Below are positions 34,923-40,431 of a DNA stretch of 64,000 bases, piece after piece (position 1 is the stretch's first letter; each line of letters starts with the position of its first letter). Both the position numbers and the translations under genes were made by a program. The DNA comes from Staphylococcus hyicus (GTDB taxonomy: Bacteria; Bacillota; Bacilli; Staphylococcales; Staphylococcaceae): assembly GCF_000816085.1 (NCBI RefSeq), contig NZ_CP008747.1, positions 1,674,001-1,738,000 on the forward strand. Reading direction: 5' to 3'. The notes beneath the pieces are model-generated. The model was not told where the DNA came from and did no database searches. It saw only the letters and a list, made by a program, of their open reading frames with translations.

Positions 34923-35573
34923 TTATCCCTCACATTTTAAATGTTTTAAAGCTGAATCGTACGCTTCGAATTTAAAAAAGTACGACCCTGCCACAAGCCA
35001 ATCCGCCCCTGCTTCGATGACTGATTTTGCTGTATGATTGTTAACGCCACCGTCAACTTCAATTTTAAAACTGAGATGATGTTTTTTTCTATAGTCATTT
35101 AACGCCTTAATTTTGTCTACACTTTGTGGAATGAATGCTTGACCACCGAAACCTGGATTCACAGACATCACGAGTACAAAGTCTACGTCATGTAAGATAC
35201 TGAATAATTGTGATACAGGCGTCCCTGGATTGATGACAACCCCAGCTTCCTTCCCGTGCGCTTTAATCTTTTGTATCGCTCTATGGATGTGAGGGGTCGT
35301 TTCAATATGAACTGATACTTTATCCGCACCTTTCTCGCAAAAGTCGTCAATATACTGTTCGGGATTTGCAATCATAAGGTGGACATCTATAGGTAAGGTG
35401 GTTTTAGATCTTAAAGCTTCTAAAATTGGAAATCCTATAGAGATGTTAGGAACAAATTGACCATCCATAACATCAAAATGTAAACCATCTACACCTGCTT
35501 CTGTAAGTTTGTCAATTTCTGTTTCAAGATTCATAAAATCTGCTGATAGTAAAGAAGGAAAAATTTTTGTCAT
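34923..35573 (-). CDS. rpe: ribulose-phosphate 3-epimerase
   Basis: Interconverts ribulose 5-phosphate and xylulose 5-phosphate in the pentose phosphate pathway. TIM barrel of 216 residues: PSLLSADFMNL at the start, GLHFDVMDGQFVPNISIG near 30 (catalytic Asp and metal His), VLVMSVNPGFGGQ near 134 and EVDGGVN near 170. Its ATG overlaps the rsgA stop (TAATG). Confidence 0.97.
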   Translation of the reverse strand: MTKIFPSLLSADFMNLETEIDKLTEAGVDGLHFDVMDGQFVPNISIGFPILEALRSKTTLPIDVHLMIANPEQYIDDFCEKGADKVSVHIETTPHIHRAIQKIKAHGKEAGVVINPGTPVSQLFSILHDVDFVLVMSVNPGFGGQAFIPQSVDKIKALNDYRKKHHLSFKIEVDGGVNNHTAKSVIEAGADWLVAGSYFFKFEAYDSALKHLKCEG

Positions 35574-36448
35574 TAGTATTTCACCTTTCGATTAGAAATT
35601 TCATGGAGTAATTGTACATAATGTTCATATCTGAATGGTTCTATGTGACCTTCCTCCACCATCTTTTTCACGTAACATTTGGGTTCATTTGTATGATAGC
35701 AATCTCTAAATTTACAGGACGCCCCATATTGACTAATTTCAATGAAATTATCTCTTAATGTATCTTTGTCTATATGGTCAAAGTCTAATGCACTAAACCC
35801 AGGTGTATCTGCAATGAAACCATTATGACGTGGGTATAATTCCACATGTCTTGTCGTATGCTTTCCTCGATTGAGTGAGGTAGAAATTTCATTCGTTTCA
35901 ATGTTAAATGAAGGTTTGTATTTATTTAATAAAGTGGATTTTCCTACACCTGATTGACCACTAAGAACCGCTAATCCTGGCTCCCATTCGTTAAAGATGT
36001 CTTCTGCGATATCGTCTTTACCGACAAATTGCGTTGCATAGCCAATCTTCTTATACACTTCTAAAAGCGCATTCACTTTATGTACCTCATCTGGAGTAGC
36101 TAAATCTTTTTTCGTTACAACGATACGAGGGGTTAAGCCATAAGAATGACCTATCACAAGAAAACGATCAAGTAATTGGGTAGAGAAATTAGGCGCTACC
36201 GCACTCATGACAATAACGAGTAAATCAATATTACTTACAGGTGGACGTTTTAATTCATTTTTTCTTGGATGTATATGATGAATATAACCTGACGCATGAG
36301 TTTCATCATCTATATCAACGATATCACCAACGATAGGTGATATTTGTTTTTTTCTAAATAAACCTCTCGGCTTGGCATCGTATAATTGACCATCTACATT
36401 CACTCTGTAAACGCCACTTATCGACCTTATAATTCGACCTGTTTTCAC
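35573..36448 (-). CDS. rsgA: ribosome small-subunit-dependent GTPase RsgA
   Basis: Circularly permuted GTPase that checks 30S maturation. OB fold at the N-terminus, then G4 TKKD, G1 [14 protein letters not shown] near 170, G3 [10 protein letters not shown] near 215 and a C-terminal zinc knuckle (C-x5-C-x-H-x5-C: CKFRDC, H, KC). The start is GTG at 36448 ([14 protein letters not shown], 291 residues), with GAGGTG upstream; the open frame reaches back 21 more codons without support. First gene of rsgA-rpe-thiN. Confidence 0.96.
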
Positions 36449-36591
36449 TTTGGCACCTCGTTTAATGTTGATTTCAAATTCATTATAGCAAAGGTTGTGG
36501 TGAATGCACATGTGAAAGCTATGATTTACAATTTTTTAACTAAGTCCCTAACATACAAACCCGAAAGAAAACGCTGAGATACATTAATACA

Positions 36592-36678: not shown

Positions 36679-37953
36679 TTATTGAAGTCGCGGACGTACA
36701 TTTTTAATGAGTGTACCGCTTGTCACTTTACCTGGGAATTGATCTAATTTTACTGATAAATCCTGCGCTGGCGCATCAAAATCAATTTTATTAGCAAAAT
36801 ATTTTATTGTTTCTTCCATCACAATAATCGTCATCCATTCTCCTGCGCAACGATGGTTTGTGTAGAAATCCCCCCCACCTTGTGGGATTAAATCAAATGG
36901 GCTACCATCCCAATTGTCAAATCGATCTGGGTTGAATTGATAAGGGTTTTCAAATAAATCTGGATCATGCGTTGTGCCAAAAACATCTAACAATGTGAAT
37001 GTACCTTTTTTAATGCGATAACCATCAAATTCAACTGTTTTCTTAAATTTACCTGGTAGAAACGGCACAAATGGAAAAATTCGGCGTACCTCTTGTGCAA
37101 ATTTATAGGCATAATTAGGGTCATCTGTTACTTGCAGTTTCAAGCGTTCTTGATCATACTCAATCATAGCTTTCACGGCATAACTTACAAAACGATTCAC
37201 TGCTGCAAGTGGACGTACCACATTCATTAAGTCAACAGCACATAATCGCGCGTCCATTTGATTTCCTTTATAATCTTCCCAATGTGCAAATTCGTATAGG
37301 GCTGTGCCTGGTTCAGCTTTAATTTCACCATTACGGACAGCAACTATTTGATCTTCTAAAAATTGTTCAACTCGTGCGCGCGCTTTTTTGGCTTTGCGAT
37401 AGCCGCTACCAAGTGTTTGACCAAGCCCTTTGAATGAATCAATCATGACATCCATGTCTTTCGCATTACGTTCAGCTTCTTCGGCTGTTTGACGAATGCC
37501 CGCCCATCTAAAACCAATCTTTGTTAAAACATAAATTGATTCTTTATAAATATTCACTTCATCTTGAGTTTGCATATGCTCTGTGTGTACAAACCAATGA
37601 TTACGTGCGAGTTCACGTAAATATTTTAAATTTTCTTCAGTCATTAACGACATAAATAATGCTTTCCGATCCACATGAACTTTGCCTTTAGTTGTGTGAA
37701 TCGCACCTTTACCAAAAAGTGTATTTACAACACGTTTAGGCAATGTTTTTTCACGTTGCATTACGTCATTATTATAGAATAACTCTGCAGCCTCTTTCCC
37801 ACTAATTACAACAATTGGTTTCATGCCCATAGCTTTTGTTTGAAATGCTTTAGTATTAAATTTTTCCAAGCGGCATGGTACATATGTATATGCCTCTTTT
37901 AAAACTTTAAATGTGTTATCCAGTCCTGAATCTTTTGGTAGTTTTTTTGCCAC
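36679..37953 (-). CDS. CYP152-family P450, OleT-like fatty acid decarboxylase/peroxygenase
   Basis: Hydrogen-peroxide-using P450 acting on free fatty acids. It closely resembles OleT of Jeotgalicoccus as I recall it (shared blocks NTLFGKGAIHT, VHVDRKALFMSLMTE, TALYEFAHWEDY, NHRCAGEW). From the GTG start at 37953 (MAKKLPKDSGLDNTF, 424 residues) the key residues are Phe80, His86 (OleT His85, which favours decarboxylation to 1-alkenes; hydroxylases carry Gln), Arg247 (binds the carboxylate) and the haem-ligand Cys369. The GTG has a GGGGGG ribosome site seven bases upstream; the frame extends 11 codons further. TATAAT at 37995-38000 may be its -10. It stands alone between terminators. Confidence 0.92.
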   Translation of the reverse strand: MAKKLPKDSGLDNTFKVLKEAYTYVPCRLEKFNTKAFQTKAMGMKPIVVISGKEAAELFYNNDVMQREKTLPKRVVNTLFGKGAIHTTKGKVHVDRKALFMSLMTEENLKYLRELARNHWFVHTEHMQTQDEVNIYKESIYVLTKIGFRWAGIRQTAEEAERNAKDMDVMIDSFKGLGQTLGSGYRKAKKARARVEQFLEDQIVAVRNGEIKAEPGTALYEFAHWEDYKGNQMDARLCAVDLMNVVRPLAAVNRFVSYAVKAMIEYDQERLKLQVTDDPNYAYKFAQEVRRIFPFVPFLPGKFKKTVEFDGYRIKKGTFTLLDVFGTTHDPDLFENPYQFNPDRFDNWDGSPFDLIPQGGGDFYTNHRCAGEWMTIIVMEETIKYFANKIDFDAPAQDLSVKLDQFPGKVTSGTLIKNVRPRLQ

Positions 37954-38451
37954 TTTTATGTCCCCCCGTAATACATTTTCTTTCAATTTACCCTATTATA
38001 ACGTGAATCAATCTCAATAATCTAATAAAAAAGAAGCGTTATCCCCCTTCCCTTCTGAATCACAATTTTTCAATACATGTATACATAATTTTAAACATAT
38101 AAATAATATAAACGGTGTTGCATTCATCAAATGATGGTCGGAGTTCATAATGCATTTAAAACAGCGCTACGATATCAATCAAAACGATATTTTATACTCA
38201 TCATCAATCTCACCATATTGACTAAATGTATGAATAAAAAACATCCAACAATCGTTCATGTAGGCATGAATGTTGTTGGATGTTTTTTATTTATAGGGTT
38301 GCTAGACTTAGGACCATATTACTATCATACATTATCCGCATATTTCTTCATTAACGTGACTTAGGATAATAGATATGATCGCATCATCTTGTATAAAGAC
38401 TTAAACGAAACACTTTGAGCAATCCAATTGAATCAAGCTAATATCGTAACA
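37954..38451. other. intergenic region P450-prkC
   Basis: Contains a possible P450 -10 box (37995-38000, no good -35) and the prkC terminator (38236-38289). The 77-codon plus-strand open frame at 38131-38364 merely reads through the terminator stem and has no ribosome site. Confidence 0.7.
38236..38289 (-). terminator. terminator after prkC (bidirectional form)
   Basis: AACATCCAACAA pairs with TTGTTGGATGTT, with an inner TTCATG/CATGAA, flanked by A and T runs on both sides. It lies 160 bases beyond the prkC stop and would close the def-to-prkC transcript. Confidence 0.85.
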
Positions 38452-40431
38452 TTATACATCATCGTATGCTATGGTTTCATCTTTTATAGTTTTTCCATCA
38501 ACTTTAACCATGTAGCTTGCCTCGCCACCCTCTTCAATAACGAAACTCAAACTTTGTGTCATGGTCTTTGTAATGTTAAATGATTGTATTGGAGATACAC
38601 CATTGCTATTTTTATCTTTTTTAAAAATCTCAACTTTTTGTGGTTTATTTCCTTTACCTGAATAAGGAATCGTGAAACTTTCTGAGTACGTTTTATCCGG
38701 TGATGATTCGTCTTTATCCTCTGATTTTTCACCTTTTGAAACGATAAAGCTAATGGTACTGCCTTCATCTACTTCTGTCTTACGCGGAGAATGATTGATG
38801 ATGTGACCCGCTTTAATCTTATCGTCTTCACGTTCGGACTCGACATTTACCGTCAATCCTTTATTTTCTAATTCTTTTTTCACAGTCGAAAACTTTTTGT
38901 TTGTATAATCATCCACGTAAATTTGACGTTTACCTAAAGACTCTGTAATTTCAACACGTTCTTTAGATACAGACACTTTTTTCCCAGGTGTGATACTTTG
39001 ACCTTCTATGTTCCCTTTAGCAATATCATGTTGCGTGTATGCTGTGGTGAAATGTACATTTTTAAATCCTAACTCTTCTAACGTTTTCACAGCATCAGCC
39101 TTTGATTGGCCAATTAAGTTTGGCATATCTTCAATATGTTCACCTTTAGACACAACGAGGTCAACTTTCGTCCCTTGTTCAACCTTGTCGCCAACTTCAG
39201 GTTTGACTTTCATAATATGGTTTTTTGCATAATCATCACTATAATCTTGAGAAATACGCCCTACTTTTAATTTATTATCTTTAAGCATTTTTTCAGCTTG
39301 TACTTCTTTTTTGCCACGGACATCAGGGACTTGGCTATATTTGTCTCCCATCATTGCTGCAGCGACAAAGATAAATAAACTGAAAAATAACACCATAAAT
39401 ATGAGACCAAATAAAATTTTCTTCCCTTTTGAACGTTTTTGATAGCCCTCTTTCATAGATACCGTCGAATGTGGTGCTGTCGTAACAACAGGGATTTGAG
39501 TTGTTTGCTGAACCGATTTAGGTTGAGGAGATTCATTTTTAATCGCGTTTTTATCTAGCGTAATTGTTTTTGTTGCGCTTTCGTTAGGATGGTAAAGTGT
39601 TTCATGCGCTCTTGCTTCAGATAATGTCGAACTTAAATCATGACGCATTTCTGAAACAGATGTATAACGTTTAGACTGATCTTTTTCAGTTGCCTTTAAA
39701 ATCACATTGCTTAAAGCTTGCGGCACGTCATGACGCGTATCAGAAACATTTGGAACTGGATCTTGTATTTGTTTGATTGCGATACTGACAGGTGTTTCAC
39801 CATTAAATGGCGGGTGACCGATAAGCATTTCATATAATACAATCCCTAACGAATAAATGTCAGAACGCGCCCCTGTTTTTTCACCTTTTGCTTGCTCAGG
39901 AGATAAATATTGAACTGTTCCTACGACATGATTCGTTTGGGTCATCGCAGTCTCACTCAGCGCCTTAGCAATACCAAAATCAACAATTTTAAGCGTTTGA
40001 TTACGATCTATAATGATATTGTGTGGCTTAATGTCTCGGTGAATAATCCCTTTTTCATGGGCATGATGAATGCCTTTAAAAATTTGGTTTGCAAATTTAA
40101 TTGCTTTTTCTGGGGCCAATTGTCCATGAGATTTAATATAATCAGAAAGCGTAGGACCTTCAATATATTCCATCACTAAAAAGAAACAATCATCTTCTTC
40201 ACCAACATCTAACACACTTACAATATTTTCATGGGACAATAATGTTGTATTTTGTACTTCACGTTCAAAGCGCGCTATTGTTTCATGTTTTTCATTTGGC
40301 GGAACATGTATCATCTTCACAGCTACTTGGCGTTTCAAAATACGATCCCAAGCAACATAGACGTTACTCATACCGCCGCCGCCTAAAATATGCTTTAGTT
40401 CATAACGTTCATCAATAATACGTCCAATCAT
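38452..40431 (-). CDS. prkC: Ser/Thr protein kinase with PASTA repeats (PrkC/Stk1)
   Basis: Membrane kinase that senses cell-wall fragments and phosphorylates many proteins. 659 residues: cytoplasmic kinase domain with GGGGMSNVY near 17, Lys39, HRDIKPHN with Asp133 and DFG 151-153; a juxtamembrane linker; one membrane helix (339-361); three PASTA repeats (about 366-570); and a C-terminal extracellular domain rich in Ser and Lys. It overlaps stp by four bases, so kinase and phosphatase are made together. Confidence 0.97.
   Translation of the reverse strand: MIGRIIDERYELKHILGGGGMSNVYVAWDRILKRQVAVKMIHVPPNEKHETIARFEREVQNTTLLSHENIVSVLDVGEEDDCFFLVMEYIEGPTLSDYIKSHGQLAPEKAIKFANQIFKGIHHAHEKGIIHRDIKPHNIIIDRNQTLKIVDFGIAKALSETAMTQTNHVVGTVQYLSPEQAKGEKTGARSDIYSLGIVLYEMLIGHPPFNGETPVSIAIKQIQDPVPNVSDTRHDVPQALSNVILKATEKDQSKRYTSVSEMRHDLSSTLSEARAHETLYHPNESATKTITLDKNAIKNESPQPKSVQQTTQIPVVTTAPHSTVSMKEGYQKRSKGKKILFGLIFMVLFFSLFIFVAAAMMGDKYSQVPDVRGKKEVQAEKMLKDNKLKVGRISQDYSDDYAKNHIMKVKPEVGDKVEQGTKVDLVVSKGEHIEDMPNLIGQSKADAVKTLEELGFKNVHFTTAYTQHDIAKGNIEGQSITPGKKVSVSKERVEITESLGKRQIYVDDYTNKKFSTVKKELENKGLTVNVESEREDDKIKAGHIINHSPRKTEVDEGSTISFIVSKGEKSEDKDESSPDKTYSESFTIPYSGKGNKPQKVEIFKKDKNSNGVSPIQSFNITKTMTQSLSFVIEEGGEASYMVKVDGKTIKDETIAYDDV

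Follow-up and report, generated by a model that had tools for sequence, protein, structure and literature searches.

A lone cytochrome P450 gene between prkC and rsgA of Staphylococcus hyicus raises two questions: what its product would catalyse, and how the gene came to lie there. We examined it in a window of 64,000 nucleotides of the S. hyicus chromosome (the whole stretch of DNA analysed, to which all positions below refer) and compared it with other genomes of the family. The answer that we favour is that the S. hyicus P450 is very probably a positional ortholog of OleT_JE (CYP152L), an OleT-type decarboxylase whose gene was inherited vertically in the prkC-rsgA interval, with three or more losses inside the genus Staphylococcus.

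The P450 gene, its signals and its neighbours

The gene, assigned below to the CYP152L clade of OleT-type P450s, occupies 36679..37953 on the minus strand and is an intact reading frame of 424 amino acids, with its stop codon at 36679-36681 and a GTG start at 37953. A search of the S. hyicus genome (a single contig of 2,472,129 bp) showed that this OleT-type gene is its only P450 gene. The GTG start is backed by a G-rich Shine-Dalgarno sequence, GGGGGG (37962..37967, minus strand), standing 8 nt upstream; S. agnetis and the majority of other staphylococci with this P450 share its context, CGGGGGG. A GUG start with a G-rich Shine-Dalgarno sequence was argued earlier for the homologues of S. massiliensis, S. 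agnetis and S. pseudintermedius (PMC5588734). Further upstream, the TATAAT at 37995..38000 (minus strand) is probably the -10 box, as judged by upstream conservation in the hyicus and intermedius groups. It is overlapped by a candidate sigma-B-like motif, GATTGA-N14-GGGTA (37989..38013, minus strand), which was found in such form (GATTRA-N14-GGGTA) in the four hyicus-group genomes only; sigma-B control of the P450 gene is a lead that depends on the function presumed for this motif.

The gene order at the S. hyicus locus is stp, prkC, P450, rsgA, rpe and thiN. The upstream neighbour is prkC/stk1, coding for a PASTA Ser/Thr kinase (38452..40431, minus strand; NF033483, 606 bits), and the downstream neighbour is rsgA, coding for a ribosome small-subunit GTPase (35573..36511, minus strand; TIGR00157), both identities being confirmed by NCBIfam equivalogs. 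An earlier note on this DNA had described a lone P450 gene flanked by two terminators in the prkC-rsgA interval, and both hairpins proved real: an intrinsic terminator lies 3' of the P450 gene (36593..36636, minus strand; dG -15.5, z -4.4) and a terminator hairpin separates prkC from it (38233..38290, minus strand; dG -28.9, z -11.3). Both were overlooked by a simple scanner and found from hairpin dG and z scores.

Family membership and active-site residues

The results of our phmmer searches showed that the S. hyicus P450 matches OleT_JE (4l40) with 597 bits (E=1.5e-178) and P450BSbeta (1izo) with 309 bits. It is 61% identical to OleT_JE, 66% identical to OleT_Sa (9rxh) and about 35-37% identical to the CYP152 hydroxylases, and its nearest relative is the protein of S. 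agnetis DSM 23656 (92%). On NF053744, the NCBIfam CypC equivalog, it reached 465 bits, under the cut-off of 600. The P450 tree, whose deep branches are poorly supported (31-64), groups it with OleT_JE and the S. massiliensis gene in a single clade that excludes the 35% outgroup. P450s of one subfamily share more than 55% identity, and the 61% identity to OleT_JE, together with clade membership, places the S. hyicus protein in subfamily CYP152L. The top Foldseek matches of its model, which is of medium confidence only, were the OleT structures 9rxh, 5m0p and 4l40; the AlphaFold model, made from 16 sequences, loses confidence around the active site, where pLDDT drops under 50 (residues 80-95 and 349-368).

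Alignment to characterised CYP152 enzymes, which the earlier note had proposed as a check, agreed with its pairing of Phe80, His86, Arg247 and Cys369 with OleT residues 79, 85, 245 and 365 and placed His86, not Gln, at OleT position 85. All six active-site positions checked are the same in the two proteins (S. hyicus P450/OleT_JE: F80/F79, H86/H85, I171/I170, L177/L176, R247/R245 and C369/C365). The OleT_JE query was entered by hand; it agrees with the 4l40 alignment and, throughout the aligned part, equals the J. marinus database protein (L036). The Gln at OleT position 85 by which CYP152A/B hydroxylases are recognised is thus absent from the S. hyicus enzyme. At the alkyl end of the pocket, F46 of OleT_JE is replaced by Ile and A317 by Leu, and therefore the chain-length preference and the alkene/hydroxy ratio of the S. 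hyicus P450 may differ from those of OleT_JE.

Distant CYP152 genes (35-38%) were also seen in two other Staphylococcus genomes, G005 (L060) and G009 (L061/L064). In the former (35% identical), Gln replaces the His and Phe the Ile; the latter is apparently in broken pieces.

Predicted reaction

By analogy with its characterised relatives, the S. hyicus P450 most likely uses peroxide to decarboxylate C12-C20 fatty acids to 1-alkenes and forms some hydroxy acids besides. The carboxylate of a free fatty acid would be held by Arg247, beside His86 and Phe80, and H2O2 would form compound I on the Cys369-ligated heme. Compound I would then take the beta hydrogen from the fatty acid, and the resulting radical would lose CO2 to give the Cn-1 terminal alkene, a share of the flux going to 2-/3-hydroxy acids. 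We infer the steps from compound I to the 1-alkene from these same relatives.

The earlier note's reading of an OleT-like decarboxylase is supported, as are all four of its residues; its use of the His as the decisive switch is not. Terminal alkenes were still the dominant products of OleT_JE H85Q (PMC5377825); in a contrary study, as cited in PMC5588734, all H85X and I170X variants of OleT lose myristic acid decarboxylation. Because the H85Q enzyme remained mainly alkene-forming in one of these studies, a Gln at OleT position 85 is a weak refutation test. A Leu at OleT position 176/177 favours decarboxylation in relatives (PMC6452516; PMC12284513), and the S. hyicus P450 carries this residue (Leu177).

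It is unlikely that the enzyme acts in the cell chiefly as an alpha/beta-hydroxylase of fatty acids and makes alkenes only as a minor product. The characterised OleT enzymes do yield hydroxy acids too, CYP-Sm46 gave 66% rather than 100% 1-undecene from lauric acid (PMC5588734), and the pocket changes at F46 and A317 point in the same direction; however, His86, Ile171 and Leu177 are all of the decarboxylating type and the assayed relatives within the clade are decarboxylases.

Distribution and probable losses of the gene

We found the OleT-type gene in 13 of 84 Staphylococcus genomes, in each of which (13/13) it lies between prkC and rsgA, and in all 24 genomes of the family outside Staphylococcus. 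Sixteen of the non-Staphylococcus loci could be read with their flanks: 14 have prkC and rsgA on opposite sides of the P450, and in the remaining two, one of these genes lies inside the fetched stretch. The order stp-prkC-P450-rsgA-rpe-thiN was also found in Salinicoccus, Jeotgalicoccus (including J. marinus) and Aliicoccus, and every Salinicoccus and Jeotgalicoccus genome searched carries the gene.

The other 71 of the 84 Staphylococcus genomes lack the OleT-type gene. Their prkC-rsgA interval is 90-553 bp in most and is occupied by other genes in a few; tblastn (E<=1e-4) detected no P450 remnants in those intervals that were inspected. A tree of rsgA and prkC (IQ-TREE), which omits three further non-bearers with the two genes on different contigs, showed that all outgroups and the basal Staphylococcus species, S. 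massiliensis, have the P450 and that three separate clades are without it: one of 59 species, one of 7 species and the pair G112 and G023. Each of these clades has a bootstrap of 100 or is a fully supported pair, and the tree implies three losses of the P450 within Staphylococcus.

The genes that occupy the interval in non-bearers differ. Trypsin-like serine protease genes were seen in one loss clade (G028, G046, G118, G047 and G041; L099, L101, L103, L096 and L102), in the longer intervals of which a Mur-ligase-like gene of about 690 amino acids adjoins them. An MFS transporter gene was seen in G022 (L113) and G002 (L131).

The skin-lipid question

The earlier note had suggested that the enzyme might act on host skin lipids. 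S. hyicus, S. agnetis and S. pseudintermedius dwell on animal skin, so that several bearers live where free fatty acids are rich and a host-adaptive enzyme for skin lipids might be kept. We nevertheless regard this role as highly unlikely and not indicated by the distribution, since all Salinicoccus and Jeotgalicoccus genomes searched have the gene as well, and the 59-species Staphylococcus clade, which presumably includes many skin species, is without it. Nor did the P450 show a useful complementary pattern with the oleate hydratase gene (PF06100) across the 84 genomes: full-length matches were obtained in 20 of them (2 of the 13 P450 bearers and 18 of the 71 non-bearers). S. hyicus itself has a full-length gene of this family (G000:C1:152635-154131) and its close relative S. 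agnetis (G031) is without a full-length match.

Probable vertical inheritance

Because the outgroup genera and every P450-bearing Staphylococcus have the gene in the prkC-rsgA slot, absence of the P450 is the derived state. The earlier note had taken the core gene order to join prkC to rsgA otherwise; with the slot occupied in the outgroups, this direct joining is instead the product of loss. The dN/dS of the P450 gene between related species is 0.04-0.06, and the gene is therefore under strong purifying selection. The P450 tree and the species tree seemed to disagree on where the genus neighbouring Staphylococcus belongs, but the difference is not significant: an AU test (p=0.51) leaves the grouping of the species tree acceptable to the P450 data.

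Since 71 of the 84 Staphylococcus genomes are without the gene and in most of these less than 600 bp separates prkC from rsgA, horizontal gain by the S. hyicus/S. intermedius group through insertion between the two genes might be suggested. This is extremely improbable: Salinicoccus, Jeotgalicoccus, Aliicoccus, the remaining genera of the family and the basal S. massiliensis all have the P450 in that position, and the P450 tree is compatible with vertical descent. Vertical inheritance from an ancestor of Staphylococcaceae and sister families forms part of the explanation that we hold very probable. The literature searched, with most subscription papers outside the search, held no earlier report of the ancestral position or of repeated losses, and the conserved position and repeated loss of the gene may be unreported before.

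Natural role

OleT has been studied almost solely as a biofuel catalyst, and the literature searched gives no natural function for it. Our best guess is that in S. hyicus it serves the disposal or conversion of free fatty acids; the locus has no regulator or partner gene that hints at such a role. We give about even chances to the broader proposal that Staphylococcaceae and sister families inherited 1-alkene formation by the OleT of the prkC-rsgA interval vertically as an ancestral trait, that this trait serves fatty acid or membrane physiology in a housekeeping-type role, and that Staphylococcus could dispense with it on three or more occasions, one of them on the branch from which most of the genus descends. 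With its fixed position, purifying selection and repeated loss, the gene invites a test of its natural role in which bearers are set against close relatives that no longer have it. Our searches also supply further candidate members of the OleT family from animal-associated staphylococci.

Comparison with known OleT-type enzymes

The characterised members of the family are OleT_JE, OleT_JH, OleT_SQ, OleT_SA, OleT_LA and CYP-Sm46. OleT_JE (CYP152L1, Jeotgalicoccus sp. ATCC 8456, PDB 4L40) shares with the S. hyicus P450 61% identity, the same active-site residues and the same gene neighbourhood, the last as observed in J. marinus, the protein of which equals OleT_JE in sequence; it differs in F46 and A317, which are Ile and Leu in S. 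hyicus.

CYP-Sm46 (CYP152L2) comes from the same genus and shares the slot, the GUG start with a G-rich Shine-Dalgarno sequence and all key residues; the gene of S. massiliensis CCUG 55927 is about 70% identical to that of S. hyicus. Unlike the S. hyicus enzyme, CYP-Sm46 has been characterised in vitro, giving 66% 1-undecene from lauric acid. An alkene-forming enzyme of this type is not new in staphylococci, because CYP-Sm46 already decarboxylates fatty acids in vitro (PMC5588734), and the homologues of S. agnetis and S. pseudintermedius were already noted in 2017 (PMC5588734). In the genome of S. massiliensis CCUG 55927 (G040), a seeming in-frame insertion in the P450 was rejected as a run of N (L031 6778-7350), with no residues lost between its flanks. 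In this genome the P450 is separated from prkC by genes for a permease and an ArsR-like regulator, both named by eye.

OleT_SA (CYP152L7, PDB 9RXH) is 66% identical to the S. hyicus P450 and keeps the F/H/I/R/C set, but has Ile where S. hyicus has Leu177. The protein (WP_049319149), labelled Staphylococcus aureus, shares 98% identity with the one encoded in G140 (L166), a genome placed outside Staphylococcus on the rsgA and prkC tree and probably belonging to Mammaliicoccus (the former S. sciuri group). A misnamed or mixed assembly may account for the S. aureus label, and another genus of origin is suggested for this enzyme.

P450BSbeta (CYP152A1) and the other CYP152 hydroxylases share the fold, the Arg, the Cys and peroxide-driven fatty acid oxidation with the S. 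hyicus P450, whereas they have Gln for His and Val or Phe for Ile170, at 35-37% identity.
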